Below, one piece after another: positions 135-27,657 of a stretch of 37,494 nt of DNA (its first letter is position 1; each line of letters opens with the position of its first letter). The DNA is from Candidatus Eiseniibacteriota bacterium. Lineage in GTDB: Bacteria; Eisenbacteria; RBG-16-71-46; CAIMUX01; WJJG01. The DNA lies in contig JAGMBO010000086.1 of NCBI GenBank assembly GCA_023129715.1, forward strand, positions 1-37,494, read 5' to 3'. The notes under the pieces were generated by a model. The model saw nothing but the letters and a program-made list of their open reading frames with translations, was not told the origin of the DNA and did not search any database. The position numbers and the translations under genes are program-made.

Positions 135-3100
135 TCAGTCATCCTTGACACAGCCAGCCCCGCGGGAACCAATCTGGTCGCACGCTGGATTGGGCTCGGT
201 ATGCGCGTTGCAGGGTGAGAAGATCGAGAGCATCAAGTTGCCGTTGAAGATATCGCAGAAGCGAGGCGATGCCTCGATGTTGTCATTGACCCCGTGCCAC
301 CCCGCTAAGCACCCCACATAGTTTCCACCCGAATTGCCGTAGACATCACAGCACGACAAGCTCGCGGAGCCACCCGAGCAATAGACTGGTCCTCCGGAAG
401 TCGTATAGGCGATGATGCAATTCATGAGTTGAAGTGTACCGTTGGCGAAGTAGAGGCCTCCCCCACTGCTTGAGGCGCCGCCGCGGGCAAACGTGCAATT
501 CGTCACGGTGACATCGAGATTCGAGCTGCAGATCGCGCCGCCCCAGCGTGCGGAGTTCTCGAAGAACGTGCACAGAGTCACCTGCGCTGCACTGCAATTG
601 GAAATGGTCAACGCACCGCCACAGCCTGTCGAGGCACCATTGTTGTAGAAGTTGCAGTTTGTGAACGAGACACTGGCCTGCGTGCAGTAGACGGCCCCTC
701 CATTGACGTTGACTAGATTGTCTTCAAACCAGCAGTCGCTGAATCCGATCGCGTAATCGCCGTACTCGCAGTAGACCGCACCACCGGAATTCACGGCGCC
801 ATTCGAGCGGAATTCGCAGTCGCGGAACATCTCCGTCCGCCGGCCCACGGGGCAGAACGCCGAGACGACCACGGCGCCACCATAGTCTGCCAGGTTGTCA
901 TAGAACACACACGATTGGAAGATCGGTGATGCGCAGCCGCAAGCAGCCGCACCCCCATAGGTTCCATAGCCATGTTGAATGGTGATCTCTTGAATGACTG
1001 TGTCAGAGCCCTCGTTGTCGTCGAAATCGAAGGCGCGATGCGGCTCGTTGATCGAGCCCTCACAGTCAATGATGCACGCGCTCGCGCTCCCGCTGAGTGA
1101 ACGAATGGTGAGAGCCTTGCCGTGGAAGTCGAGATCGCGGTTGCCGGGCCCGATGAAAGTCCCGTCTGCTAGGTAGATCTCGTGGCCGGCAGGGACACTG
1201 TCAATGGCTTGCTGGATGGTCGCGTAGGTGCCGCTTCCGTCGGGACGGATGTAGGTGATGCTCTGGATCGTGAAGGTGCCCGGACTGGTGGCGGAGGCGC
1301 CAGAGCTGAGATCGGTGATCAGAATCGAGTAGTCGTCTCCCTTCATGGCACATCCCTCGGCGGACCACTGGTGGCTGCCGTCATTGGGCGTTGACGCGGC
1401 GATCAATCGGCATACGGAGGCGCTGCGACGCAGCTCGATGCGCACCGTGGAGCCGCAGCACGCGGAGGGTGCCCAGAGGATATCGACCGGATCCAGAGGC
1501 AGATAGGAAGCTCCGCTGGGTGGCGAGGAGACGTTCAGACCGCAACCGGACTCGATCCGGAACTCGCCGTTACTGCGGTCAGCCTGGCCAGTGGACAGGT
1601 CAGTCACGCGAATCGTGTACCCGGACGTCTGGGATGCGCACTGCGCCGCTGTCCAGGGATGGGAGCCGTCATTTGGAGTCGACGAGGTGATCGTCCGGCA
1701 GACGACCCCACTCCGCAGTAGCTCGATCTTGACGAAGCCACTGCAACAGGAGGTGGAATTCCACAAAATCTGCTGGAACGTGCCGGCGCAGAAATCCTCC
1801 CCCCCATTGGGGGCCAGCACGCCGATGGCGCAGGGTGGCTGAATCCTGAACTCCGCAGCGCTTGTACCACTTGCCCCAATCTGGAGGTCCGTGACGCGGA
1901 CCGTGTAACCGGACGCTTGGGATGCGCACTGTGCGGCCGTCCAGAGATAAGATCCGTCGTTCGGGGTCGCTGGTGAGATGACATTGCAGACCGCTCCATT
2001 GCGGAGGAGTTCGATCCGGACGTCGTCCCCGCAGCAGGGTCCGGCGTTCCAGAGGATCTCGACCGGCGTGTCCGCGCAGAACTCGTCATTCGAGGCCGGA
2101 TGAGTGACCGCGATCCCGCACGGCGGTTGGATCGTGAAACTCCCGTCGCTTGTGTCGTCCGTGCCGGTCTCCAGGTCGGTGACCCGGACCGTGTAGCCGT
2201 ACGCCTGGGATGCGCACTGTACGACCATCCAGGGGTAGGATCCATCGTTCGGCGTCGAGGCGGCGATGGTGCTGCAGACAGAACCATTCTGCAACAGCTC
2301 GATCTGGACGGCCTCGCTACAACAGGAGGTCGACTCCCAGAGAATCGGCTGTGATTCTCCTTCACAAAAGACCTCGCCTCCGTTTGGCGTGACCAGGTCG
2401 ACCGCACAGGTTGAGATCGAGAAGACGGCATCGCTCTGATCGCTGATCCCAGTGGCGGGATCGGTTACGCGCAGAGTCAGTCCGTCTGCGCCCGCGGGAC
2501 AGGGCTCGACCTGCCAGGTGAATCGGCCCGTGTTTTCCGCCGCCGCGGAGATCGACAGACAGACGATACCGTCGTGGAGGAGATCGAGGCCGACCGTCGG
2601 TCCACAGCACGGCTCCGTGCTCCAGAGCAGATCGATCGACATCCCCGCACAGAAATCTTCGCCCCCATTGGGGTGCGCCACGGTGAGGAGGCACGCGGGG
2701 CGGATCGTCAGGGATCCCTCGGATTCGGCGGAGGTGTCCGAGTCGAGATCGACAACGCGGAGCCGATAGCCGAGTGACTCGGCGCCGCAGCCCGCCGCGG
2801 CCCACCGATGGGCCCCGTCGTTCGGCGTCGAGGCGGCCACGATCCCGCAAGTAGCTCCGTGCTGGAGGAGTTCGATCCGAACGTATTCTCCGCAGCACGG
2901 AGACGTTTCCCAGGCGATATCGATGGAGTCGCCCTCGCAGAAGATCCCATCACCGGCGGGACTCGTGACGGCGACGTCGCATCCGGCCAGGATCTCGAAG
3001 TATCCGGCACTTCGATCCATGGCGCCCGTCTGCGGATTCGTGATCTCGACTTGGTATTCCCCGCTGGCGACGCCGCACGGCTCTGCCCGGCAGGTGTAGG

Positions 3101-6100
3101 ATCCGTCGTTTTCGGTGGCCGCGGCCAAGCTGCGGCAGACCGTTCCGCTCTGCAGAAGGTCGATCCGTACCTGCGGGCCGCAGCACGCTCCGTGATCCCA
3201 CCGAATCGCCAGGGAGTCTCCGACGCAGTACACCTCGTTCCCTCCGGGCGCGGTGAGATCGAGATAACAGGCCGGCAAGACCTCGAAGGTGGCGTCGCTA
3301 TCGTCCGCCGCGCCGCCATCGAGATCAGTGACGCGGATTCGGTAGTCTCCCTCGGTCTCAGGGCAGCCGCCAGCAATCCAGGCGTACTCGCCATCGTTGT
3401 CCGTCGCGTCGGCAATTGTCTCACAGACACTGTCGAGGTGGAGGAGCTCGATCCGGACCAAGGCCCCGCAGCAGGTGGAGTGTTCCCAGACGATGGCAAC
3501 CTCCTCGCCCGCACAGTAGTCCTGGCCGCCATTCGGCGCCGAGAGAACCAGATCGCAGTCGCGCGCGATGGTGAAGGTCTCGGGGCTTTCTGCGCTGGCG
3601 CCGGTGGCCGAATCGGTCAGACGGATGCGGTAGCCGGTCTCGGGGCCTTCGCAAGGATCGGTGAGCCAGAGCAGAACGCCGTCGTTCTCGGTGGCGGCGG
3701 CGATCTGATGACAGATCTCGCCATCGCGAACCAGATCGATGCCGACTTGCTCGCCGCAGCAAGCTCCCGACGTCCAGACTATGGAGATCTCCTGGCCGGC
3801 GCAAAACGTGTCTGGTCCGATCGGCGCGAGAATCTCGAGCTGACATGTCTCGATGGCGAAAAACGCGGCAGTAGTGTCGGCAGCACCAGCTGCGGGTGCA
3901 CGTACGGCGATCTGGTAGCCGCCTCCCAAGTCGCATCCCGCCACGGGCCAGACGTAGTCACCGTCGTTGGCCGTCTCCGCGGCAATGACCCGGCAGAACT
4001 GGCCGTCCTGCAACAAGTCGATCGCAACCTCAGCGTCACAACAGGAGCGACTCGTCCACTGGATGGTCACCGACTCCTCGCTGCAGAACGTGGCCGACTC
4101 TGCCGGCGCGGTGATGTCGATCGCGCAGCGCTCGATCGCGAATGTGGATTCCGAAGTGCCCACGGCGCCAGTGGCCAGATCGCACACGCGGATCTGATAG
4201 TCTCGGTCCGCATCGCAAGGCTGGGCGGTCCATAGATAAGATCCGTCGTTCGCGGTCGTTGCGGCGATTGTCCGGCAGATTTCCCCGTCGTGTAGTAGCT
4301 CGATGGCCACCGAGTTGCCGCAACAGGACGACCCTTCCCATTCGATCAGGACGTCATCCCCCGCGCAGTAATCGCTGGGCCCGGAAGGGAGCGTGAGACT
4401 GATCTCACATGCCGCGATCGAGAAACTCCCGCTCATCCCCGCGGCTGCATCGCTCGTCAAATCCGTTACGGCGATCCGATAGTCGTCGGGGCTGCCGTCC
4501 GCCACGCACCGCGCCGCACCCCATGAATGCTGCCCGTCATTTGGGGTTGCGGCGGCGATCGTGGCACAGACCGTCTCATCCTGCAGGAGATCGATGCGGA
4601 CGCTGTCCCCGCAACATGCGGACCGAGACCAGATGATCTCAACCTCGTCGCCGGGGCAGAATGTGGCCCCGGCGGCCGGCGAGAACAGTGTCAAGGTGCA
4701 GGCAGGGCGGATGGAGAACGTTGCGTCACTCTCGTCCTCGACACCGCTCGCTCGGTCGGTTACACGGACGGCATAGCCGGTAGAGTCATCCGCGCAGGCC
4801 TCGGCAATCCAGCTGAAGCCGGTCTCGTTCGTTGCGGAGTCGGCAATCGTAGCGCACACTTGGCCGTCGTGGAGGAGTTCGATGCGGGCGGCGCTTCCAC
4901 AGCAGTAGGAAGACTCCCAAGTGATGGCCACCGGCCGCCCGGGACAGAAGGACTCACCCCCATTGGGCTCGGTGAGAGAAATCGCCTGCTCAGTGAAGAT
5001 CGAGAAGGCCCCGGGGCTCTCGGCGGAGGTCATCTGGGCGAGGTCGGTGACGCGGATGGAGTAGCCGGGGGCCCGCTCCGAGCAGGGAGCAGGTATCCAG
5101 GAGAAGGATCCAGTGTTCTGGGCGGCCTCAGCCAGGGTTTCGCAGACACTCCCATCCTGGAGGAGTTCGATGCGCATGGCGTTCCCGCATGCCGCGGATG
5201 CGGTCCAGGTGACCAGGGCTTCCCGGCCTACGCAGATGACGCAGCCGCTGTCGGGCGCGGTGACAGCTAGATCGCAGTCCCCCGGACAGTCGCCAAAGCT
5301 GACGAAGTCGGGAGTGATCGCCTCGCCGGTTCCCGATCGATAGAACGTGACACTCTCTTGCGACACACACAGTCCGGGCGTCGGGGATCCGCCGCAAGTC
5401 TGAATGTAGAGCAATACGTCGCAGCCGGGATCGATGACACCAGGCCCCGGAACCTCAGGATTGGGCGTGACCGACAGCAGGAAGCTCTGTTCGCCCGCCA
5501 CCAGGGGCTCGGTCGTCACCAGAAATCCATCCCGTCGTCCGCAGTCATACAGGCGGCTCCCCGGATCGATATAGAGCGTGGCACTGATCGCGTCGCACAC
5601 CGAGAATCGCATTTCGATCGCCTCGATCTCCTCGGGGTTCTCGACGACGACCGGGAAGAACAGGCGCTCGGGATGCGCCGCAGCGGCAGCCGTCGGGACG
5701 GCCGGCGGGGAGGTTTCCTCATCCAGTGGAATGCCCTCGTAGAGCACGAGGCGATGTTGGGTGGGCGGAGTGCTGGCCAAGACGACATTGACCGTGCGTT
5801 CGCTGACTTGCGGATCGAGGGTGAGAGTCGTCTGTCCGCGCAATGACCCGCGGGACACGAAGAATCGCCACCATGTGGTCCCCATCGGCCGCCATAGGCT
5901 GAGGACGATGTCCCCTTCGTCGGTGGCGCTGGCCTGTATATCCGGGACCCACGAAGGGTCGTTCTGGATCGGCCGTACGTCGTAGGCCGCGACTTCATTC
6001 CCCCCGAGAAGAAACATCGCGACGTGGGTGGAGTCGGCAAGTGCAGAGACCACCTCCTCGGACCACACGCCCTTCGGAGGAAGCTTGAGCGCGAGCGCCG

Positions 6101-6236
6101 GCCGACCGTCCGTCGAGCCGGGATCCGGGGCGAGGTTCCCTTCCGTGCAACCGAAGAGAGCCAACACCAAGGTCAGGAAGCCGACGAAGATGCCGGGGGG
6201 CGTTTGGGAAGGGATTGTCGCATACCAATGCCGCAT
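135..6236 (-). CDS. Giant exported Ig-like repeat / beta-helix protein, probable lipoprotein
   Basis: The product is about 2033 aa. Residues 1-29 form a signal peptide ending L-F-G-Cys30, a plausible though imperfect lipobox. About 290 unique residues follow, then 14 tandem Ig-like repeats of about 95 aa (residues ~321-1655), then a C-terminal right-handed beta-helix of about 375 aa with the opening TIQQAIDSVPAG, an IIDCEGS motif and repeated NC.F/GGAVYC rungs. The repeats resemble the Kre9/KNH1-like Ser-Thr-rich Ig-like family, with a core I-x-W, CCG, VRIELL, NDG-x-x-W and Y-x-I-R-V-T-D-L. Most carry six cysteines, so heavy disulphide bonding outside the cytoplasm is likely. ATG 6236 was chosen because GGGAG lies 10 nt upstream; a TTG at 6245 is the alternative. 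It is probably a surface stalk or adhesin, but the function is unknown. It lacks the FlgD-Ig tail seen on two other secreted proteins here. Confidence 0.88.
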   Translation of the reverse strand: MRHWYATIPSQTPPGIFVGFLTLVLALFGCTEGNLAPDPGSTDGRPALALKLPPKGVWSEEVVSALADSTHVAMFLLGGNEVAAYDVRPIQNDPSWVPDIQASATDEGDIVLSLWRPMGTTWWRFFVSRGSLRGQTTLTLDPQVSERTVNVVLASTPPTQHRLVLYEGIPLDEETSPPAVPTAAAAAHPERLFFPVVVENPEEIEAIEMRFSVCDAISATLYIDPGSRLYDCGRRDGFLVTTEPLVAGEQSFLLSVTPNPEVPGPGVIDPGCDVLLYIQTCGGSPTPGLCVSQESVTFYRSGTGEAITPDFVSFGDCPGDCDLAVTAPDSGCVICVGREALVTWTASAACGNAMRIELLQDGSVCETLAEAAQNTGSFSWIPAPCSERAPGYSIRVTDLAQMTSAESPGAFSIFTEQAISLTEPNGGESFCPGRPVAITWESSYCCGSAARIELLHDGQVCATIADSATNETGFSWIAEACADDSTGYAVRVTDRASGVEDESDATFSIRPACTLTLFSPAAGATFCPGDEVEIIWSRSACCGDSVRIDLLQDETVCATIAAATPNDGQHSWGAARCVADGSPDDYRIAVTDLTSDAAAGMSGSFSIAACEISLTLPSGPSDYCAGDDVLIEWEGSSCCGNSVAIELLHDGEICRTIAATTANDGSYLWTAQPCDADRDYQIRVCDLATGAVGTSESTFAIERCAIDITAPAESATFCSEESVTIQWTSRSCCDAEVAIDLLQDGQFCRVIAAETANDGDYVWPVAGCDLGGGYQIAVRAPAAGAADTTAAFFAIETCQLEILAPIGPDTFCAGQEISIVWTSGACCGEQVGIDLVRDGEICHQIAAATENDGVLLWLTDPCEGPETGYRIRLTDSATGASAESPETFTIARDCDLVLSAPNGGQDYCAGEEVAIVWEHSTCCGALVRIELLHLDSVCETIADATDNDGEYAWIAGGCPETEGDYRIRVTDLDGGAADDSDATFEVLPACYLDLTAPGGNEVYCVGDSLAIRWDHGACCGPQVRIDLLQSGTVCRSLAAATENDGSYTCRAEPCGVASGEYQVEITNPQTGAMDRSAGYFEILAGCDVAVTSPAGDGIFCEGDSIDIAWETSPCCGEYVRIELLQHGATCGIVAASTPNDGAHRWAAAGCGAESLGYRLRVVDLDSDTSAESEGSLTIRPACLLTVAHPNGGEDFCAGMSIDLLWSTEPCCGPTVGLDLLHDGIVCLSISAAAENTGRFTWQVEPCPAGADGLTLRVTDPATGISDQSDAVFSISTCAVDLVTPNGGEVFCEGESQPILWESTSCCSEAVQIELLQNGSVCSTIAASTPNDGSYPWMVVQCASQAYGYTVRVTDLETGTDDTSDGSFTIQPPCGIAVTHPASNDEFCADTPVEILWNAGPCCGDDVRIELLRNGAVCNVISPATPNDGSYLWTAAQCASQASGYTVRVTDLQIGASGTSAAEFRIQPPCAIGVLAPNGGEDFCAGTFQQILWNSTSCCSGFVKIELLRSGVVCRTITSSTPNDGSHPWTAAQCASQTSGYTIRVTDLSTGQADRSNGEFRIESGCGLNVSSPPSGASYLPLDPVDILWAPSACCGSTVRIELRRSASVCRLIAASTPNDGSHQWSAEGCAMKGDDYSILITDLSSGASATSPGTFTIQSITYIRPDGSGTYATIQQAIDSVPAGHEIYLADGTFIGPGNRDLDFHGKALTIRSLSGSASACIIDCEGSINEPHRAFDFDDNEGSDTVIQEITIQHGYGTYGGAAACGCASPIFQSCVFYDNLADYGGAVVVSAFCPVGRRTEMFRDCEFRSNGAVNSGGAVYCEYGDYAIGFSDCWFEDNLVNVNGGAVYCTQASVSFTNCNFYNNGASTGCGGALTISNCSAAQVTLCTFFENSARWGGAICSSNLDVTVTNCTFARGGASSSGGGLYFANGTLQLMNCIIAYTTSGGPVYCSGGSASLSCCDVYGNSGGNYVGCLAGWHGVNDNIEASPRFCDIFNGNLMLSIFSPCNAHTEPNPACDQIGSRGAGCVKDD
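1260..5276 (-). repeat. Fourteen tandem ~95-codon Ig-like repeats
   Basis: The repeats occupy the middle of the giant lipoprotein, with a period of about 282-294 bp. Each starts with Cys, then P-x5-(F/Y)C-x-G, I-x-W, CCG, (R/K)IELL, VC, NDG-x-x-W, a sixth Cys, and Y-x-(I/V)RVTD. Variants are visible. The first repeat has AC in place of CC but gains an extra Cys earlier. The second lacks the leading Cys, the eighth has Cys in place of the conserved Trp, and the fourteenth lacks the second Cys. Repeats 11-13 (about 1550-2400) are also alike at DNA level and share a GGGATGCGCACTG block, which suggests recent duplication. Confidence 0.9.
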
Positions 6237-6618
6237 CGGATGCAATCTCCCGGGAGGAGAGTTCCGCCGGCCACACGGCCCAGCCGTGGCTCCGAATCAC
6301 GTCACCATGGCAGGGTCTCTCAAGGCACTCGGGACATTCGATTCCACCTGAGTCTATCAGTCCGACGAGAACGGCGTCAATTCGTGGCGGGATCCTCTGT
6401 AGACGGCCACGCAGCGGGGCACTGCGGCCCGTCGTGACTCGGGCGGTCGAGGCTTGTCTGGGTTCTGGAAACAGGCGAGCGCCACAAAGAACGCAACATT
6501 GTATCCTTCATTCACAGCCATCCCTGCTCCCGCCTCTTACGATGCCACATACGATCTGCTAGAGTATCTGTGTCCCGAGTGTCGATGTGTCACATGTTCG
6601 CATTGTGGCGGTGATTAG

Positions 6619-6632
6619 TGCATCGCGATGCA
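6619..6632. repeat. Perfect 14-bp palindrome TGCATCGCGATGCA
   Basis: This is a self-complementary 14-mer in the leader region about 190 nt upstream of the FG-GAP gene. It could be a regulator-binding site for either divergent gene. No second copy was noticed nearby and no regulator is identified. Confidence 0.4.
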
Positions 6633-6694
6633 TCTCGATCGGGGGGCGGATCCTCATGCGATCCTGCGTCTCACCGGCAGGACATCTTACCGTC

Positions 6695-6721
6695 GAGGCG
6701 CCCGCCGGCGCCTCTTTCTCT
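6695..6721 (+). terminator. Terminator/attenuator-like hairpin in FG-GAP gene leader
   Basis: A perfect 8-bp stem, GAGGCGCC (6695-6702) with GGCGCCTC (6707-6714), closes a 4-nt loop and is followed by TTTCTCT. It reads as an intrinsic terminator on the plus strand but lies about 100 nt upstream of the FG-GAP start, where no plus-strand gene precedes it. It may be an attenuator in the leader, or the promoter may lie downstream of it. No riboswitch aptamer was recognised. Confidence 0.5.
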
Positions 6722-6821
6722 GGAATCCCTGGCCCGAATCGCGCCCCGACTCCCGTTCTTGCCAACGACGCCGGACAACCTCTCGCAGCACCTTCCTGCA
6801 ACTCGAACCAGGAGGAACACC

Positions 6822-9800
6822 ATGGCATGCTACACGCCTCGGCCGGATCCGAACGCATGCACGCGCCCCTTCAGGCCCTCTTGCGCCGTGTATCGAACTT
6901 CGCCGCGTGCGCTGCACGCGCCCCGCTGCAAACGATCCCTCTCCGTTCTCTCGGCTTGCCTCCTGCTCTCTCTATTCGCAGCCGCCTGCGCCGATGCGCA
7001 GGTCCACGTCGACCACACCGAGTCGCTCCTACCCTACGGAGACTCCTTACTCGATGACAGCGACAAGTTCGGGAAGTGTTTAGCTCCTGTCGGAGACCTG
7101 GACGGCGATCTCATCCCGGACGTGGCAGTCGGTGCACCCGGTGACGACGGCGGGATCGGCGGCCGTGGGGCAGTCTACTTGCTTGAGCTCGATTCAGACG
7201 GGACTGTCTATGATCGCCACAAGATCAGCGCTACGGAAGGCGGTTTCGGGGGGACACTTGCTGCTGGAGACGCGTTCGGTTCTTCGGTGGTCTCGCTCGG
7301 GGATCTGGACGGTGATGGCATCGACGACCTTCTAGTCGGGGCGCCCCTAGACGATTATGGCCCCGGCGACGATCTTGGCGCCATCTGGATTCTCTTCATG
7401 AACAGTAACCAGACGGTCAAAGACGAACAGAAGATCTGCTATCAAATCGCGTATTTCGAGGCAAACCTGGAAGAGCAGGATCGATTCGGCACCTCGGTCG
7501 CCGCACTCGGCGACCTGGATGGCAACGGCTTCGATGAGATCGTGGTGAGTGCCCCAGGTGATGATGCTGGAGGCCCCAGTCGCGGGGCAGTCTACATTCT
7601 CACGCTCTACCCGAACGGTCTTGTCCACTCCCACAGAAAGATCAGCGACACGGTTGGCGGTTTCACGGGAACACTTGATGACTACGACTACTTCGGCAGT
7701 GCCATCGCGTGTGCGGGAGACTTGAATGGCGATGGTGTGACGGATTTGTTCGTCAGTGCGCCGGGGGACGATGATGGCTCAACCAATGCCGGTGCTGTCT
7801 GGGTGCTGTTCCTGAACAGCGATCGCACCGTGCTGGCACATCAGAAGCTCAGCCGGACTGCGGGCGGGCTTCCCTGGTATATCGATGGCATCGGCAGCTC
7901 GGTGACATCGATCGGAGATCGCGACGGCGATGGAGTCCTCGACTGCGCCGTCGGTGCCGAAGAATTCTCGGGGGGTGGGGCCGTCTGGATTCTCTATCTC
8001 AATAGCAATGGCACTGCTAAGGACGCGCTCGAGATCCGCGAGATGTACGGGGGCTTCGAGGGTGAACTCGACCCTAACGATCGCTTCGGCGCTGGAGTTG
8101 CGTCTGTCGGGGACCTCAACGGAGACGGGGCCGGAGATCTCATGGTTGGCGCGATCCTCGACGACGACGGGGGGGCGAATCGGGGTGCTGCCTGGGTATT
8201 GTTCTTCGATGATCAGGAGTGTGTCATCCACGAGCAGAAGATCTCTGATACCGAGGGAACTCTCGCAGCCCCGCCGAATCCTCCCTGGTCGGATTACGGC
8301 TCTGCCCTCGCATTGCTCGGCGATGTGGACGGCGATGGAGTCAGTGACGTGGCCGTCGGCGCATCCGGGGAGTGGTATGGTTCGAATCGTGGCGCTGTGT
8401 GGGTGCTGTTCCTCAACAGCGACGGCACGGTCAAGGATCATCAGAAAATCAATGACATGGTGGGAGGATTCACAGGAGACCTCGATGACGACGATCTGTT
8501 CGGCAACTCGCTGGCAGGCCTGGGAGATCTGGATGGAGACATGGTCCCCGACCTAGCAGTCTGCGCCCCCGGTGACGACGACCTGGAGCCGAACTGTGGC
8601 GCGGTCTGGGTGTTGTTCCTCACGGCAAACGGAACGGTGAAGTCGCACCAGAAGATCAGTGGCGGAAGCGGGAATTTCACCGGGCTGATCGAGGGGGGGG
8701 ACCACTTCGGATCGTCAGCTACTTGGCTGGAAGACCTCGAACTCGATACCGTCGGGGCCCTAGCGGTGGGCGCAATCGATGATGATGACGGAGGCACCTC
8801 TTTCGGCGCAGTCTGGGTCCTCTTCCTCAACAGCAACGGCACGGTACGAAGCCATCAAAAGATCAGCAGTACCGCCGGGGGATTCGGTGGCCTACTCAGC
8901 AGCGATGATGGTTTCGGAGGCGAATCCGGTGCGCTCGGGGACCTCGACGGCGACGGCGTCCAAGACCTGGCCGTGTGCGCCGGTCTCGATGATGACGGAG
9001 GCGACGATCGTGGTGCGGTGTGGACACTGCTCCTGAACAGCGACGGAACTGTGAAGAGTTATCAGAAGATCAGCGATCTCGAGGGAGGGTTCGAAGGTAT
9101 TCTGGACGACGCCGACGGCTTCGGCTCCTCGGTTGCCTGGCTCGGAGATCTTGAGAACGACGGCACACCGGAAATCGCCGTCGGGGCGACGGGCGATGAT
9201 GATGGTGGTGGCTCGGGCGCACAGGGGGCGGTCTGGATCCTGACTCTCGATGCCGACGGCACTGTGCTCTCACACTGGAAGATCGGTGCCGCAGAAGGTG
9301 CGCTCAGCATGCTTCTCGAGGAAGGGGGCGAGTTCGGCGCATCGGTGACGTCACTCGGCGACTTCGAGGGAGATGGCGTGCCCGATTTCGCTGCCGGTGC
9401 GGATAAAGCAAGCGCGGGGAGATTCCAAAACGGGGTCGCCCATGCAATCTTCCTTGCCGCGAACCCCCCAGCTTGTGAGATCTCTCCACCAGCCCTTGAT
9501 TTCGGGCGCGTGGGCGCCGGCACCTCGATCGGCCATGGGATGGAGATGTCGTTCTCCATTCGCAATGTGGGCGGGGAGTTGCTGACCGGCGATGTGACCG
9601 AGGCGTGTGACGATTTCGAGATTACCGCGGGAGGCGGGGCCTTCAGCCTGGCAGCCAATGACTCCGTATCGGTCACCGTCAAGTTCATGCCCCCGTTGCC
9701 CGGGGAGTACGAGTGCGTGATCAGCACGGGCACTGGACTGTGTGGGGACGTGGGTTGCTTCGGGATCGGCGGCGCGGACTACATCCAGGTCGTTGGTGGA

Positions 9801-10415
9801 TTCAATGCCTGGGACGCGGACGCCCCGTCGATGACATTCCTCGGGTCTGGCGTATGGGTGGACACATTGTCGATCGATGCCGACTGCTACTATCTGAAGT
9901 TCCGCACGAACCAGTGGTGGGATATCCCGCGCGACTATGGTGGATGCACGGCTGAAGATCCGACCTGCCAGGTGCCGATGTCGGGACCGATCTGTCTGGC
10001 TGCCGGCGAGGGCACGGCGATTGGGCTCGTCGACTTCGCGATCACCGGAGACTATGCCTTCACCATCGACGAGTTCGCGATGACCTATGACATCGAACTC
10101 GTCGGTTCATCGGGTGTCGTGGCGTTGCCTTCCCCGACCGTCTTCCGCGTTTATCCGGCCCTCCCCAACCCGTCGGCGTCGGACGTCAGGCTCCGCTACG
10201 ACTTGCCGCAGTCCGCGTGGGTGACAGTGCGGGTGTTCGACATCACCGGCCGCTCGGTGCGCCTACTCGAGAACGGAGCGCGAGATCCGGGGCGCTACTC
10301 GCTCGTCTGGGACGGAAGAGACGCTGGCGGACGACGGATGGCCCCGGGAATCTACTTCTCACGGATCGAGGCGGGGGCTAGGCAGGAAACGCGGCGATTG
10401 ATTCGGGCCCGCTGA
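6822..10415 (+). CDS. Exported FG-GAP (integrin-alpha-like) propeller protein with FlgD-Ig tail
   Basis: The product is 1197 aa. ATG 6822 was chosen because GGAGG sits 6 nt upstream. A long basic N-terminus leads into a hydrophobic signal (residues ~40-58, ending ADAQ), with lipidation at AAAC as an alternative. Twelve FG-GAP blades follow (FG-x-S-V-x-x-L-GDLDGDG-x-x-D-x-x-VGAP), whose DxDGDG loops normally bind calcium. The ninth blade has lost this loop (LEDLELDTVGA). After the blades come an ASH/SPD-2/Hydin-like domain (PPALDFGRVGAGTS), a short domain with GGFNAWD and YYLKFRTNQWW that recalls glycan-binding modules, and a FlgD-Ig/type IX-like C-terminus (FDITGRSVR, WDGRDAGGRRMAPGIYFSRI). 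A secreted or surface structural/adhesive role is inferred. It is divergent from the giant repeat lipoprotein. Confidence 0.9.
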   Translation: MACYTPRPDPNACTRPFRPSCAVYRTSPRALHAPRCKRSLSVLSACLLLSLFAAACADAQVHVDHTESLLPYGDSLLDDSDKFGKCLAPVGDLDGDLIPDVAVGAPGDDGGIGGRGAVYLLELDSDGTVYDRHKISATEGGFGGTLAAGDAFGSSVVSLGDLDGDGIDDLLVGAPLDDYGPGDDLGAIWILFMNSNQTVKDEQKICYQIAYFEANLEEQDRFGTSVAALGDLDGNGFDEIVVSAPGDDAGGPSRGAVYILTLYPNGLVHSHRKISDTVGGFTGTLDDYDYFGSAIACAGDLNGDGVTDLFVSAPGDDDGSTNAGAVWVLFLNSDRTVLAHQKLSRTAGGLPWYIDGIGSSVTSIGDRDGDGVLDCAVGAEEFSGGGAVWILYLNSNGTAKDALEIREMYGGFEGELDPNDRFGAGVASVGDLNGDGAGDLMVGAILDDDGGANRGAAWVLFFDDQECVIHEQKISDTEGTLAAPPNPPWSDYGSALALLGDVDGDGVSDVAVGASGEWYGSNRGAVWVLFLNSDGTVKDHQKINDMVGGFTGDLDDDDLFGNSLAGLGDLDGDMVPDLAVCAPGDDDLEPNCGAVWVLFLTANGTVKSHQKISGGSGNFTGLIEGGDHFGSSATWLEDLELDTVGALAVGAIDDDDGGTSFGAVWVLFLNSNGTVRSHQKISSTAGGFGGLLSSDDGFGGESGALGDLDGDGVQDLAVCAGLDDDGGDDRGAVWTLLLNSDGTVKSYQKISDLEGGFEGILDDADGFGSSVAWLGDLENDGTPEIAVGATGDDDGGGSGAQGAVWILTLDADGTVLSHWKIGAAEGALSMLLEEGGEFGASVTSLGDFEGDGVPDFAAGADKASAGRFQNGVAHAIFLAANPPACEISPPALDFGRVGAGTSIGHGMEMSFSIRNVGGELLTGDVTEACDDFEITAGGGAFSLAANDSVSVTVKFMPPLPGEYECVISTGTGLCGDVGCFGIGGADYIQVVGGFNAWDADAPSMTFLGSGVWVDTLSIDADCYYLKFRTNQWWDIPRDYGGCTAEDPTCQVPMSGPICLAAGEGTAIGLVDFAITGDYAFTIDEFAMTYDIELVGSSGVVALPSPTVFRVYPALPNPSASDVRLRYDLPQSAWVTVRVFDITGRSVRLLENGARDPGRYSLVWDGRDAGGRRMAPGIYFSRIEAGARQETRRLIRAR

Positions 10416-10701: not shown

Positions 10702-11676
10702 CTAGCACTGCCCTGCGAGCGACGCCCTCTTCGCCAGCCGTCTCAGGGTCGCCAGGTTCTTCCGATCCATCTCCCCTTCCTTCGGGGTCTCGAGGATCTT
10801 CGGCAGGGCGGCGAAGCGGTGATCGGTCAGAATCCATCCGAAGGGACGCCCGCCGATCTCGCCGCGCCCGATGTGGGCGTGGCGATCGACGCGCGATCCC
10901 AGCGGCGTGCGGGAATCGTTGAAGTGGAAGATCGCCAGGTTGGCGAGCCCGATCGTCCGATCGAACGCATCCCACACCTTCCCGTAGCTTCGCGGAGTGC
11001 GCAGATCGTAGCCGGCCGCGAAGACGTGGGCGGTGTCGAAGCAGACGCGGGCCCGGTCGGGATCCGCAAGGCCGCTGAGGATCTCGGCGATCTGTTCGAG
11101 GCGCCAGCCCAAGCCGGTGCCCTGCCCGGCGGTGGTCTCGATCACCGTCTTGGGAAGCGTTGACGGCAGAGCTCGCCGGGCCACCGCGACGCTCCTGTCG
11201 CACGTAGCGTCCCCGTCGGCTACAGCACCGCCTCCATCCTCGGCGGCCGGCGCCGTCGTCGCGCGGTGGATCCGATCGAGTGCTTGAACCACCCGGCGCA
11301 GCCCGCGCGTCTCCCCCGCACCCATGTGTGCCCCGGGATGGAAAACGAGCAGCGGGATCCCCAGCGCATGACAGAGGCGCACTTCGGCGACCATCGTCCG
11401 AATCGAGCGCTCGCGCAGGTCGCGATCGGGCGAGGCGAGGTTGACCAGATAGCTGGCATGCGCAGCGAGGGCAAACGGCCCTTCCCGCTCATCCGTCCGG
11501 CGGAAGCACTCGATCGCCTCGCTGGTCAGCCGCGGAATGCGCCATTGGGCTCGATTGTGGGTGAAGATCTGAACCGCCCGGCAGCGCAGCTCTCGCGCCC
11601 GCTCGAGCGCCATGTGCAGGCCCCCGGCGGTCGAGAGATGGGCGCCGATAATCAGCGGGTCGGCTTGCGGTGACAT
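10702..11676 (-). CDS. nfo: Endonuclease IV (AP endonuclease)
   Basis: The product, about 324 aa, cleaves 5' of abasic sites in base-excision repair using a trinuclear zinc centre in a TIM barrel. All family metal ligands are visible in order: HASY, FHPGAH, the Glu of VIETTAG, CFDTAH, FHFND, VDRHAHIG and ILET. IGAHLS...GGL opens the protein as in E. coli Nfo. A loop of about 30 residues before VIETTAG (AEDGGGAVADGDAT region) is longer than in the E. coli enzyme. ATG 11676 gives the normal N-terminus MSPQADPLIIGAH. It lies inside the end of the octaheme cytochrome gene, overlapping it by 25 nt in another frame, so translation may be coupled. ATGs at 11685 and 11715 are alternatives. Confidence 0.95.
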   Translation of the reverse strand: MSPQADPLIIGAHLSTAGGLHMALERARELRCRAVQIFTHNRAQWRIPRLTSEAIECFRRTDEREGPFALAAHASYLVNLASPDRDLRERSIRTMVAEVRLCHALGIPLLVFHPGAHMGAGETRGLRRVVQALDRIHRATTAPAAEDGGGAVADGDATCDRSVAVARRALPSTLPKTVIETTAGQGTGLGWRLEQIAEILSGLADPDRARVCFDTAHVFAAGYDLRTPRSYGKVWDAFDRTIGLANLAIFHFNDSRTPLGSRVDRHAHIGRGEIGGRPFGWILTDHRFAALPKILETPKEGEMDRKNLATLRRLAKRASLAGQC

Positions 11677-12500
11677 GCCGCACATTCGGTCGGGCCGCTC
11701 GTCTCGGTGTGGCAACCCAGGCAGCTCGCGTGCAGGGCATCCTCGACGCTGCTGACTTCGGCCTGCTTGGCCCGGATGTCATGACATGCCCGGCAGCGCT
11801 CCAGGTGGTGACACGTGGCGCAGTCGAGGCCATAGCCATCGGCATGCTCGGCGTGCGAGAAGGCGACCAGCGTGGTGCCCGCGCGGGGGGTGATGAAGAC
11901 GTGCTCATCCGGAGGTTCGAGGGCGGCGAGATCCTCTTGATTTGGACGCTGCGCGGCGAGCAGGCGCTCCGGCTCGATGGCCGACACCCCGGCCATCAGG
12001 CTCTCCTGGGCCGCGTGGCCCAGCTTGGGCGCGGCGGACACCCCCGGACGCGGGTGGCCCGCGGGCGCTCCCGTGGCTTCCGTCGCGCCGGACTCCCCGG
12101 AACCGGCCTGGTGACAGATGGCGCAGTCCCCGCCTCCCGGCGCCTGCGTATGGCAGGACAAACAAGCGCCGTGCATGGCGACTTTGGCACTGCTGACGAG
12201 CTGATCACCGGACTCCTCGCGGTGGCAGCCCCGGCAACCTTCCAGGTGGTGACACACTGTGCAGCCCATCTCCAGCGCGACGTGCAACTCGTGATCGAAG
12301 GCTACCTCGGTTCCTTGCCGGAACCAGGTCGCAAAGGTCACCACGCCGGGCTCACTGGCGGGAGTCCCCCGATCGAGGGTGATCTCGCCGGAGAGCAGGC
12401 GCGCCGTCTGTTCCTGGGCACTCCCCATCCCCGCGGCCGCGAGCAGGACAACCGGTAAAACCAGCGCCAAGGTCAGTGCCAAGAGCCGATGCCGCTTCAT
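11652..12500 (-). CDS. Octaheme periplasmic cytochrome c
   Basis: The product is 282 aa with a Sec signal peptide (MKRHRLLALTLALVLPV..., cleavage near GSAQ). Eight CxxCH haem-c motifs are visible: CTVCH, CRGCH, CLSCH, CAICH, CATCH, CRACH, CLGCH and CAACH. They form two tetrahaem halves with the same order and spacing (CHHLE-x-CRxCH, then CLxCH, then CxxCH), implying an internal duplication joined by an Ala/Gly/Pro-rich linker. The spacing resembles cytochrome c3/c7-type domains. GGAGG lies 9 nt before ATG 12500, whereas an ATG at 12509 would touch the SD. It is the last membrane-complex gene after the ferredoxin and NrfD genes and probably passes electrons between the quinone-linked complex and a periplasmic partner. 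Axial ligands cannot be assigned from sequence alone. Confidence 0.93.
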   Translation of the reverse strand: MKRHRLLALTLALVLPVVLLAAAGMGSAQEQTARLLSGEITLDRGTPASEPGVVTFATWFRQGTEVAFDHELHVALEMGCTVCHHLEGCRGCHREESGDQLVSSAKVAMHGACLSCHTQAPGGGDCAICHQAGSGESGATEATGAPAGHPRPGVSAAPKLGHAAQESLMAGVSAIEPERLLAAQRPNQEDLAALEPPDEHVFITPRAGTTLVAFSHAEHADGYGLDCATCHHLERCRACHDIRAKQAEVSSVEDALHASCLGCHTETSGPTECAACHRKPTR

Positions 12501-12521
12501 CGGGTTCATCCTCCAGCCTTG

Positions 12522-13712
12522 CTATGCGGGCGCCGCCTGCGACGCTCCGTCAGTGGATCTCTTTGCCCCCGCGCCGGCGTCCCGCGGCCCCTCGGCGGAG
12601 AAGACCGGCAGGAAGCGGGCGGCCAGACCGAAGACGAGCGCGGCACACAGAACCAGGAACACCGAAAGCCAGATCTCCTGCCAGTTCGGCAAGTAGCTTC
12701 CGCCCGTCGAGCGCAGCATGCCGACCAGGGATATGTTCAACCGATTGAGCACCAGACCAATGACGATCATGAGTGAAGCGAGGAAAAGTGGCGTCCGCTG
12801 GCGCCGCAACCGGGAGGAGAAGAGGATAAAGAGCGGCACGGTGAAGAGCGCCATCTCAGCCAAGAAGAAGATGCTCTCGGTACTGCCGGTGAAAGCCTCA
12901 CCCCAGACACCTCGCCGGGTGAGATCTTGAATGCGGAGGATCAGGTAGAAGATGTCGGCAAAGGCGAGATAGCGGCCCAGGCGGGCGAGCAGACGCAACT
13001 CGAGCCCGCGGCGCAGGAACTTCGAGCTCAGGAACGATTCCAGCATGACCATCGCGAAGCCGACGGTGACCGCCGAGAAGAAGAAGAGCAACGGCAGATA
13101 GCGCGTGTACCAGAGGGGATGGAGTTTCCCGGGGGTCAGCAGGAAGAGACTGCCCAGCGATGACTGGTGCAGGGTCGAGAGCACGATCCCCGTGATGAAG
13201 AGCGGGATCTGGATCGCGCGAATGATCCGCATGGGCGCATGCAGGCCAAAGCGCTCGAGGACCATCGGGAGGAACTCGAGGAGGAGCACCGTGGTGTAGA
13301 GCATCACACACCAGGCTACCTCGAACATCGCCGAGTGATGGTTCCAATAGATGATCGCGTGCCAGATGTTCCAGGGCTTGCCGATATCGAAGAGCAGCCC
13401 GACGATGACCAGCAGGTAGCCGAGGAAAGCCGTCAGAATCGCCGGCCGGACAAGGCCGCGATAGGTGTGGTCGCCGGCGATGTGCACCAGCAAGGCCATG
13501 GTGAACCCGCCCGCCGCCAGCGCCACGCCCGAGATTACATCGAAGCTGATCCAGAGCCCCCAGGGAACCTGATCGCTCAGGTTGGTCGTGGCGCCGAGAC
13601 CGAACGCGAAGCGCCGCAGGGTGATGATCACCCCGCCCAGAATAATGATCCCGATGGCGATCCGCCCCGGGGTGATCAGCTTGCGCACATCCATGCCGGC
13701 GATCGATGGCAT
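12522..13712 (-). CDS. HybB/NrfD-family integral membrane quinone-site subunit
   Basis: The product is 396 aa and almost wholly hydrophobic, with about ten predicted membrane helices. It resembles E. coli HybB along its length: FGLG...PWGLWISFDV, AGGF, VRPAILTAFLGY, D-x-GKPWN, MFEVAWC, LEFLPMVLERFG and LHQSSLGSL...KLHPLW. HybB/NrfD proteins exchange electrons between a partner Fe-S subunit and menaquinone. GGGAGGGG sits just before ATG 13712; an upstream ATG at 13727, preceded by AGAGG, is also possible. It follows the ferredoxin gene by only a few nt and precedes the octaheme cytochrome by 21 nt, so the three products probably form one complex. Confidence 0.92.
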   Translation of the reverse strand: MPSIAGMDVRKLITPGRIAIGIIILGGVIITLRRFAFGLGATTNLSDQVPWGLWISFDVISGVALAAGGFTMALLVHIAGDHTYRGLVRPAILTAFLGYLLVIVGLLFDIGKPWNIWHAIIYWNHHSAMFEVAWCVMLYTTVLLLEFLPMVLERFGLHAPMRIIRAIQIPLFITGIVLSTLHQSSLGSLFLLTPGKLHPLWYTRYLPLLFFFSAVTVGFAMVMLESFLSSKFLRRGLELRLLARLGRYLAFADIFYLILRIQDLTRRGVWGEAFTGSTESIFFLAEMALFTVPLFILFSSRLRRQRTPLFLASLMIVIGLVLNRLNISLVGMLRSTGGSYLPNWQEIWLSVFLVLCAALVFGLAARFLPVFSAEGPRDAGAGAKRSTDGASQAAPA

Positions 13713-13730
13713 CGCTACCCCTCCCATCCC

Positions 13731-14546
13731 TTACCTCTCTGCGCCCCGAGCGTCTTCGACCTCGCGCGCGTCCTCCGCATCTCGGGCGCGCTCCATGCGG
13801 CGATTGACCACCCAGTAGAGTCCGCCCAGGAAGACGGTGCCGGTAACAACGATACTGGGAATCCGCTTCTGCACCGCCCAGGTCAGTTCCGGCAGTGGGT
13901 TGTGGGTCATCGACGCGGGGAAGCCAAGTTGTGCGAAATCGACCGGTGAGATCATCAGGATGCTGCCGCCACCGACTTCCTTCTCCCCGAAGATGTGGTC
14001 GACGTAGAGGTCGGGGTGCTTGCGGATCCGCTCGCGGGCGATCTCCAGCAGCGTCTCGCGGGGACCGAAACGCGTGGCACCCGTGGGACAGGCCGCCGCG
14101 CAGGCGGGCTCCTGTCCCTCGTCGAGCCGCGGATAGCAGAGCGTACACTTGCGGACCACCGGTGCATTACTGTCCCATTGATAGCGGGGGACGCTGAAGG
14201 GACAGGCGACCATGCAGTACCGGCAACCGAAACAGAGATCCCCATCGTAGCTCACCGCGCCATCGGGCCGCTTCGTTAGCGCCCCGACCGGACAGGCGGA
14301 GACACAGGCGGGATCGGCGCAATGCATGCAGAGGCGCCGGATAAAGACCTCCTTGCCGTCGACCTCGCGGGGAACGACAACCGTGAAGTTGTCCGCCCCG
14401 AGTTCGCGTGCCGGCGGGTCGCCCGGCGACGGCTGCGCGAGGTCGTTCGCCTCGCGGCAACCCTCCATGCAGGCCTCACAGCCGATGCATTTCGTGAAGT
14501 CGATCAGCAGGCCCTTCTGACTTTCCCGGTGTGTACTGCGATTCAT
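13731..14546 (-). CDS. HybA-like ferredoxin subunit with C-terminal membrane anchor
   Basis: The product is 271 aa with four cysteine clusters (CIGCEACMEGC, CMHCADPACVSACPVG, CFGCRYCMVACPF, CTLC...CAAACPTGA), expected to bind four [4Fe-4S] clusters. GEKEVGGGSILMIS and a single C-terminal membrane helix (SIVVTGTVFLGGLYWVV) match HybA/HmcB-type subunits. E. coli HybA has a Tat signal, but this protein starts MNRSTHRESQKGLLIDFTKC. An in-frame TGA lies 9 nt upstream of the ATG, so no signal is encoded there. It may therefore face the cytoplasm, making the complex a trans-membrane conduit as proposed for Hmc/Tmc-type systems. GAGG lies 4 nt before the ATG. It is the first gene of the operon. Confidence 0.92.
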   Translation of the reverse strand: MNRSTHRESQKGLLIDFTKCIGCEACMEGCREANDLAQPSPGDPPARELGADNFTVVVPREVDGKEVFIRRLCMHCADPACVSACPVGALTKRPDGAVSYDGDLCFGCRYCMVACPFSVPRYQWDSNAPVVRKCTLCYPRLDEGQEPACAAACPTGATRFGPRETLLEIARERIRKHPDLYVDHIFGEKEVGGGSILMISPVDFAQLGFPASMTHNPLPELTWAVQKRIPSIVVTGTVFLGGLYWVVNRRMERARDAEDAREVEDARGAER

Positions 14547-25960: not shown

Positions 25961-26992
25961 TCAGCCACCGTTGAACTTCTTCTGGAACTCTCCCACCACA
26001 TGCAAGACTTCATCGAACTTCGGTACTTTGTCGAAGAACATCTCCGTGCTCATCGCCTGGTAGTCCTGACGCCATTCCGCTTCCTGTTCCGGCAGTGGTA
26101 CCACGCGGAGTCTCCCACGACTCAGCGTGCTGTAATCCATCCACGACCAGTTGGAGTAGATCTCCCGGTGCTTAGCCGTGCGGGCGAAGATGTCGTCACG
26201 GTCAGCCGCCTTCTCCGCGACACCTTTGGTGATCAGGCACCATAGATCGTAGTAGTGCCGGGCCATTCGGGCGGCTCTCTGCTTTCTATCTGCAGGACGA
26301 TAGGTTTCCTCGTGCAACAGCATGGCCTTCTCCCAGAACGTTCTTACTGCTGCCAGCGCTTGTACCCAGAACTTGCTGGGGCCGAGAACGTCTGGGAAAG
26401 CATCGAACAGATACGCATGCACTTCCTCCTCCTCAACGGGCTCATTGTCCGACCGGGCACCCATTTCGATCTTCACCACGCGCCGAACATAGGCCTCGGT
26501 GTTGGCCATGGCCGACGGGTATTTGAACAGAAGTGTCTGCCTGTCGCGGTCTTCCTCCTCCGAAGCGAGAATCAGTTCCCACGTGTCGGAGCTGGGGAGA
26601 GATGCGTCAATCCTTGCCGCCAGGGTCGGTGCCAGGTTGCCATGGATCCTGCTCTGCGCTGCCTCTCTCATCGCGTCGAGGCGATGACCCTTCTGCTTCT
26701 TACTGGGAGCGTTCTCGGGGCTATCCTCGCCCCCGAAACCAAGGAAGGCCTTGTCAATCACGATGTCGATGTCCTCGGAAAACCGGCTGATCAGGCTCCA
26801 GCACTTCGAGAGGGATGTACCGCCTTTGAACGTGATGTTCTGGCCCCACTCGGGAATACCGAAGAGCTCCCGGAGGGTCCAGCACACCCAGTAGTCCTTC
26901 TCCAGTGACGCGGCCGGCAGCGCTAACTGCTCTTGGGCCTGCTCACAGATCAGGCGACGACGTTCAGCAGGCTGCTCAACGTACCCGTCCAT
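25961..26992 (-). CDS. abiEii: AbiEii nucleotidyltransferase toxin
   Basis: The product is 343 aa. An N-terminal helical part (AAASLEKDYWVCWTLRELF-like, LEKDYWV) is followed by the DNA-polymerase-beta-type nucleotidyltransferase signature FKGGTSLSK (55-63) and RFSEDIDI (70-77), whose two Asp residues (74, 76) bind metal. AbiEii toxins of type IV systems stop growth, and relatives modify tRNA 3' ends with nucleotides. They act in abortive phage infection. ATG 26992 overlaps the abiEi stop as TGATG; a TTG at 26995 is a weaker alternative. The late motifs YYDLWCLITKG and FARTAKHREIY match the AbiEii helical C-terminal part. It looks intact. Confidence 0.93.
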   Translation of the reverse strand: MDGYVEQPAERRRLICEQAQEQLALPAASLEKDYWVCWTLRELFGIPEWGQNITFKGGTSLSKCWSLISRFSEDIDIVIDKAFLGFGGEDSPENAPSKKQKGHRLDAMREAAQSRIHGNLAPTLAARIDASLPSSDTWELILASEEEDRDRQTLLFKYPSAMANTEAYVRRVVKIEMGARSDNEPVEEEEVHAYLFDAFPDVLGPSKFWVQALAAVRTFWEKAMLLHEETYRPADRKQRAARMARHYYDLWCLITKGVAEKAADRDDIFARTAKHREIYSNWSWMDYSTLSRGRLRVVPLPEQEAEWRQDYQAMSTEMFFDKVPKFDEVLHVVGEFQKKFNGG

Positions 26993-27603
26993 CAACTCTG
27001 ACCCTTCCCGGCGATGGCGCGGATGATCTGGGCGATCCAGATTGGTGCGTAATGGATGTCCTTTAGGAGTTGCGCCTTGTCCTTGGCGTGCAGTCTCTTT
27101 CTGAGGATCGACGTGATGCGGTCATCGACGTGCCGCTGTCCCAGCCATCGGAGCGCCTGGATGACCGTCCCGCTGATCTTGCCGGCGGTCGCCATGTTCC
27201 GGGGCGTGGTGCGCTTGAGCAGGATCTGCCTGTTCCCCACCTGCAGCTTCCGGGTGGGGCCGTCGGTCAGGAAGACGATCTTCATGGGAACCTGGTCACT
27301 CAGGCCCAGTAGGTTGGCAGCGTAGGCCCCCGAAGGCTGGAGCCGCACGGCGTCGCGGACCTCCAGGGCGGCCACGACCTGGTCCACTGACGGTGCCAGG
27401 ACCCCGAGCTGGGGGTCGGTGCGAGGGTAGTCGTACAGGCCCCGGGCCACCTGCCGGATGGTGCCGTTCTGCTTGTAACGCTTGATGGCCGTCGCCACGG
27501 CGGTCCTGCTTCCCAGGTCCTTGAAATGGGCTGGAGTGAACACCCAACCCTTGCCATGGCCAGCTATTCGGCTAAACACCTTGCCGTCAACAGAATGAGG
27601 CAT
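26992..27603 (-). CDS. abiEi: AbiEi-type antitoxin / autorepressor (DUF6088-like)
   Basis: The product is 203 aa. The N-terminal winged helix reads GWVFTPAHFKDLGSRTAVATAIKRYKQNGTIRQVARGLYDYPR, typical of AbiEi/DUF6088 antitoxins that bind their own promoter. The C-terminal domain (IVFLTDG, RNMATAGKISGTVIQALRWLG) is the part that neutralises the toxin in studied AbiEi proteins. AAGGAGG sits 8 nt before ATG 27603. An open frame reaching 27657 would have to translate through the promoter and operator, so the shorter start is preferred. It is the first gene of the operon and its stop overlaps the abiEii start. Confidence 0.92.
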   Translation of the reverse strand: MPHSVDGKVFSRIAGHGKGWVFTPAHFKDLGSRTAVATAIKRYKQNGTIRQVARGLYDYPRTDPQLGVLAPSVDQVVAALEVRDAVRLQPSGAYAANLLGLSDQVPMKIVFLTDGPTRKLQVGNRQILLKRTTPRNMATAGKISGTVIQALRWLGQRHVDDRITSILRKRLHAKDKAQLLKDIHYAPIWIAQIIRAIAGKGQS

Positions 27604-27620
27604 TACCAAACCTCCTTCAA

Positions 27621-27650
27621 TGCCACAAAAAGTAGCTAGTTTTTGTGGCA
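27621..27650. promoter_or_regulatory. AbiE operator: 30-bp near-perfect palindrome
   Basis: TGCCACAAAAA (27621-27631) and TTTTTGTGGCA (27640-27650) are perfect 11-bp inverted repeats. The central TAGCTA is also symmetric, leaving one mismatched pair (G/G). It lies just upstream of the abiEi SD and over the predicted -10 and spacer, where an autorepressor would block transcription. Studied AbiEi proteins repress through promoter inverted repeats, so AbiEi is the expected binder. Confidence 0.8.
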
Positions 27651-27657
27651 AAGTCAA
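27629..27657 (-). promoter_or_regulatory. Putative abiE promoter
   Basis: On the minus strand TTGACT (27657-27652) matches the -35 consensus at five of six positions. A 17-nt spacer leads to TACTTT (27634-27629), a weak -10 with three of six matches. The operator palindrome starts inside the spacer and covers the -10. The spacing is right, but the -10 is poor. Confidence 0.5.

Follow-up and report, generated by a model that had tools for sequence, protein, structure and literature searches.

In a 37,494-nucleotide contig of Candidatus Eiseniibacteriota bacterium (JAGMBO010000086.1, assembly GCA_023129715.1; the whole of this stretch is referred to as the window), the minus strand encodes a giant predicted lipoprotein that is probably a surface stalk of 14 covalently chained immunoglobulin (Ig)-like beads, joined by a serial ladder of inter-domain disulfides. 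The frame from 135 to 6245 is open over 2036 codons with no internal stop, and of its two candidate starts, a TTG at 6245 and an ATG at 6236, the latter is the better one and agrees with the end coordinate in an earlier sequence-based note on this DNA (the original prediction). Residue numbers used here count from the TTG; subtracting 3 gives the numbering from the ATG. The protein consists, in order, of a signal with a lipobox-like end, a 290-residue N-terminal domain (N-domain), 14 repeats and a predicted C-terminal beta-helix. Cysteine accounts for 5.7% of its residues compared with 1.2% in 12 neighbouring open reading frames, an approximately fivefold enrichment (binomial p ~6e-43). The 14 tandem repeats foreseen in the original prediction are indeed present, measuring 92-97 residues each and holding exactly 84 cysteines in total, and since their identity to one another averages 42% and reaches at most 61%, the array appears to be old rather than recently expanded. 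We designate the cysteines C1, which opens the repeat, C2, in the motif xFCxG, C3 and C4, which form a CC pair, C5, in xVC, and C6, which follows strand E. The fixed six-cysteine pattern that had been described holds in 11 of the 14 repeats (R3-R13) and fails in R1, R2 and R14.

We read the bond topology from the co-occurrence of cysteines, scoring 161 repeats, with 134 junctions between them, of this genome and six related ones. C2 of one repeat agrees with C3 of the next, in presence or absence, at 133/134 junctions (phi 0.98, p 1.7e-37), and within repeats C1 co-occurs with C4 (phi 0.89) and C5 with C6 (phi 0.83). Seven proteins show variation in C2 and C3; in these, a shift of one repeat gives a concordance of 84/85, other tested shifts give 59-82%, and none of 20,000 within-protein shuffles attains 84 (mean 53, maximum 69). 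Repeats that carry C2 only or C3 only (n = 24) mark the beginnings and ends of stapled runs, and the neighbour rule, C2(n) with C3(n+1), fits all but one of their junctions. The protein L013 (581-5821, minus strand; 1747 residues, 7 repeats) alternates strictly, with C2 as 1010100 and C3 as 0101010, a pattern suggesting that its beads are stapled strictly in pairs. A single run spans the whole stalk of the giant lipoprotein, in which the C2 and C3 positions left empty are precisely C3 of R1, the sole C3 without a predecessor, and C2 of R14, the sole C2 without a successor. In L009 and L018 the last repeat has C2 and a cysteine is present in the short C-terminal tail; in L019 the first repeat has C3 and a cysteine stands just ahead of the stalk. 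Paired gain and loss along a repeat array can thus expose disulfide topology from sequence only.

The repeats match the Pfam family Kre9_KNH (PF10342) in ten stretches at 220.3 bits, against a cut-off of 24.6, and an AlphaFold model of repeats 11-13, made with 11 aligned sequences, is composed entirely of strands (pLDDT 95.1, pTM 0.80), a pTM that, for three equal domains, points to confident relative placement of the beads. The best Foldseek matches of the repeat model are tandem Ig proteins (titin, Dscam) and the FN3-like modules of CbhA, and model and matches agree on an Ig-like beta-sandwich fold; a search of PDB sequences with the repeat profile gave no match below E 0.1. The cysteine-locked tandem Ig stalk of the original prediction is supported. 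Strand B, of eight residues, lies between C2, beside the A'-B turn, and the CC pair in the BC loop of the same bead, and because it separates them, C2 and C3 of one bead would be at opposite poles. In the model C2 would lie at the C-terminal pole, at the end of strand A', and C3 at the N-terminal pole, so that C2 of bead n would face the BC loop of bead n+1.

The mechanism that we infer is one in which bond formation stiffens a rod that is exported to the surface and carries a tip with a putative binding role. Each bead would contain two disulfides, C1-C4 and C5-C6, and C2 of each bead would bond to C3 of the following one, giving 13 inter-bead rungs (338-448, 434-544, 530-641 and so on to 1486-1596). 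In terms of cysteines, the 13 rungs would consume 26, the 13 C1-C4 pairs 26 and the 14 C5-C6 pairs 28; the extra Cys335 of R1 would pair across the joint with Cys449, the C4 of R2, whose C1 is absent, bringing the total to 82, and Cys688 and Cys1052, left without a partner, account for the remainder of the 84. The rungs would block hinge motion at the joints and yield a stiff rod whose 14 Ig beads, at about 3.5-4 nm each, would give it a length of roughly 50 nm, anchored through a lipidated Cys33 and with the beta-helix at its distal end. The bonds would be formed by periplasmic oxidation through the VKOR-DsbA enzyme of the same genome. This is a VKOR-DsbA-DsbA fusion (L064, 196-2391, plus strand), encoded about 11 kb from a sibling giant on the same contig, and its presence is consistent with an oxidising periplasm.

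It also seems reasonably likely that all 13 joints are stapled, that the staple is an addition made by one family to an older two-disulfide repeat, and that it can be switched for each stretch or bead pair, conferring segmental stiffness. By their cysteine pattern, stapled and unstapled sections alternate in sibling proteins. The same genome encodes a second giant with 22 such repeats; profile searches revealed similar giants in three further genomes of its family (G002, G003 and G004) and simpler versions of the repeat in three others from its order (G005, G007 and G008). Of 47 genomes of the phylum, only seven contain strong matches, and no C2/C3 pair was seen outside four genomes that belong to one family. 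Large proteins with tandem Kre9/KNH-like repeats are widespread across phyla, but outgroup repeats (n = 51) have cysteines at C1 to C6 in only 0, 2, 0, 1, 0 and 0 cases, respectively, and a consensus two-repeat query retrieved 18 loci, of which 1/18 has the cysteine pattern. L020 (3073-7842, plus strand) is a 16-repeat lipoprotein stalk with C1-C4 throughout, no C2/C3 and C5-C6 mostly absent, an unstapled natural control. Long surface rods must resist buckling, and the known bacterial means of doing so are calcium at linkers and isopeptide or ester bonds within domains. Disulfides at all joints would be a different answer to the problem of stiffness, simple enough for designed protein rods, and siblings in which stretches of one repeat type occur both with and without the staple would offer a clean system for measuring its mechanics.

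One could argue that every disulfide lies inside a single repeat, for instance as C2-C3 or C2-C6, leaving the stalk an ordinary string of beads; the LDL receptor, a multi-module disulfide-rich protein, keeps its disulfides within modules (PMC4500599), and within one repeat C2 and C3 are indeed correlated (phi 0.61 over the 161 repeats). That correlation is explained by the run structure, however, since nearly all of the 24 one-sided repeats obey the neighbour rule, and the two cysteines of one bead sit at opposite ends of strand B, so we consider this arrangement highly unlikely. The C2-C6 bond guessed at in the original prediction is rejected on co-occurrence, as C6 goes with C5 and not with C2, and bonds confined to single repeats are likewise not supported, given that the C2(n)-C3(n+1) co-occurrence crosses junctions; a C2-C3 bond within one repeat is rejected on co-occurrence and on the run-end repeats. 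If, as the strand positions in the model suggest, C2 of one bead and C1, C3 and C4 of the next all meet at one joint, they might instead bind a metal ion or cluster, but a four-ligand site is expected to vanish as a unit, whereas these cysteines vary as two independent pairs (C1 and C4 without C3 in 85 repeats, C3 without C1 and C4 in two). The metal site is disfavoured for that reason, and we give it hardly any credence. An identical co-occurrence pattern, with the end cysteines missing as well, is predicted by a cross-linked fibre in which C2-C3 bonds join two parallel molecules offset by one repeat, rather than by a stiffened monomer. Yet within one chain the adjacent pole supplies an intramolecular partner, in a model whose bead orientation is confident, and the strict pair alternation in L013 is most simply understood as bead pairs in one chain, making the fibre very improbable. 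Several points nevertheless weigh against an intramolecular ladder. The junction between repeats 5 and 6 of L014 violates the C2(n)/C3(n+1) rule, as the sole exception; the placement of C2 and C3 was read only from strand order in the model; and p-values that assume independent junctions are too small because the repeats within a protein arose by duplication, a kinship for which the within-protein shuffles and the run ends correct only in part. The many run ends, over seven proteins in four genomes, are a stronger argument than the p-values.

Two further points of this kind concern anchoring and export: the Phe at -2 of the giant protein's lipobox is atypical, and its export-like acidic run (CTEGN) is weak in comparison with that of siblings (CGDDD). 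The lipoprotein-type start that had been noted earlier was confirmed, in that the signal ends in LALFG|C, with a lipobox-like L-F-G-C, and the genome encodes LspA (E 8e-36); lipidation is predicted. For surface export of the Bacteroidetes type we looked for a polar or Lys residue followed by at least two acidic residues at +2 to +6, the motif in B. fragilis surface lipoproteins being SDDDD (PMC5080379). The giant protein (CTEGNLAPD) lacks such a signal, and the siblings' CGDDD, CGDDS and CSEDK fit better. It could consequently be a periplasmic or inward-facing lipoprotein, a lipobox-like start being all that is seen and the export motif being weak. Against this, a stiff rod of ~50 nm would exceed the typical width of the periplasm, and the CGDDD-type starts of the sibling stalks resemble SDDDD, so that a location away from the surface appears unlikely and the giant protein is presumed to be surface exposed. 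Most ladder proteins begin with lipobox-like signals, and the combination of an anchor with repeated stalk domains is that of fibrillar adhesins.

The C-terminal beta-helix of the original prediction is supported at the level of sequence motifs, with a match to Pfam Chlam_PMP at 41 bits against a cut-off of 20.6. Several of its cysteines are ~28 residues apart and possibly form a stacked column. A single-sequence model of this domain is weak (pLDDT 53), with structural matches that are mostly beta-helices, none below E 0.02, and no PDB sequence matched the tip; the binding or enzymatic role originally assigned to it is conjectural. A beta-helix tips both the giant lipoprotein and L014, L019 has another domain in this position, and L009 and L018 have none, from which it follows that the tip is optional. 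L013 is a large protein of the secreted type and, by inspection, ends C-terminally in what resembles a FlgD-Ig/T9SS-type sorting domain. The N-domain, which has no Pfam or NCBIfam match, recurs in L019, suggesting an undescribed base domain common to the two, and the beta-helix recurs in L014, L027, L012 and L030. As the tips differ, and N-domain and beta-helix recur separately, stalk, base and tip appear to be mixed and matched.

Disulfides linking two consecutive Ig domains are known from Siglecs. In MAG, C37-C165 joins Ig1 and Ig2 and is among the features credited for limited inter-domain flexibility (PMC5150538), and C46-C172 in Siglec-6 was assigned from an AlphaFold model with mutants (PMC10122656). 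The co-occurrence data would place the same kind of link in the bacterial stalk, but these are unrelated animal proteins with a single such junction, compared with up to 13 in series here. The giant adhesin of Mobiluncus mulieris, with 51 Ig-like domains and isopeptide, ester, disulfide and thioester bonds, is likewise a giant tandem Ig-like stalk with covalent reinforcement, but its cross-links lie inside domains and its inter-domain linker is flexible (PMC10619420), whereas the special bond of the stalk described here would lie between domains. Kre9/KNH-like proteins (PF10342) share the domain family by sequence and its tandem use, but their outgroup repeats are almost devoid of the six cysteines and the full ladder is found in one family of the phylum only. 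Chlamydia PMP proteins are similar in the C-terminal domain, which exceeds the Pfam cut-off, but the giant protein has no autotransporter barrel, and its cysteine-rich beta-helix would cap a lipid-anchored Ig stalk. A survey of fibrillar adhesins has no mention of disulfide or Kre9 (PMC8286594), and we found no bacterial case of a serial inter-domain disulfide stalk in a literature whose coverage was partial, most subscription journals lying outside it. In that literature, inter-domain Ig disulfides were found documented only singly and in animal proteins. The protein is not a one-off, given the 22-repeat sibling in its genome and the similar giants in the same family.

Features of the giant lipoprotein gene in the window
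Feature	Position	Strand	Remarks
Giant predicted lipoprotein gene	135..6236	minus	2033 aa from ATG at 6236
Signal peptide, lipobox-like LALFG/C, Cys33	6147..6236	minus	GFLTLVLALFG/CTEG; LspA in genome
N-terminal domain, aa 34-323	5277..6146	minus	six Cys; 33% over 288 aa to N-domain of sister giant L019
Repeat 1	4989..5276	minus	no C3 (nothing precedes); extra Cys335, a possible partner of Cys449 in repeat 2
Repeat 2	4701..4988	minus	no C1
Repeat 3	4410..4700	minus	six cysteines
Repeat 4	4128..4409	minus	six cysteines and extra Cys688
Repeat 5	3846..4127	minus	six cysteines
Repeat 6	3558..3845	minus	six cysteines
Repeat 7	3270..3557	minus	six cysteines
Repeat 8	2982..3269	minus	six cysteines and Cys1052 where the conserved Trp would stand
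Repeat 9	2694..2981	minus	six cysteines
Repeat 10	2409..2693	minus	six cysteines
Repeat 11	2121..2408	minus	six cysteines; in AlphaFold model
Repeat 12	1833..2120	minus	six cysteines; in AlphaFold model
Repeat 13	1545..1832	minus	six cysteines; in AlphaFold model
Repeat 14	1260..1544	minus	no C2 (nothing succeeds)
C-terminal beta-helix domain	138..1259	minus	PMP-type repeats, 25 Cys

Scanning the window for Rfam families and tRNAs gave no matches. The divergent neighbour of the giant gene (6618-10415, plus strand) encodes a 1265-residue protein with FG-GAP (integrin-alpha-type) repeats and a C-terminal FlgD-Ig / Por_Secre_tail sorting domain, the latter hinting at a T9SS-like export route. Further along, a class III/c7-type multiheme cytochrome, an NrfD-like membrane subunit and a 4Fe-4S protein are encoded in a row (11652-14546, minus strand) and probably constitute a respiratory membrane complex. 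An AbiEii nucleotidyltransferase and a DUF6088/AbiEi-like partner (25961-27657, minus strand) resemble a type IV toxin-antitoxin pair.

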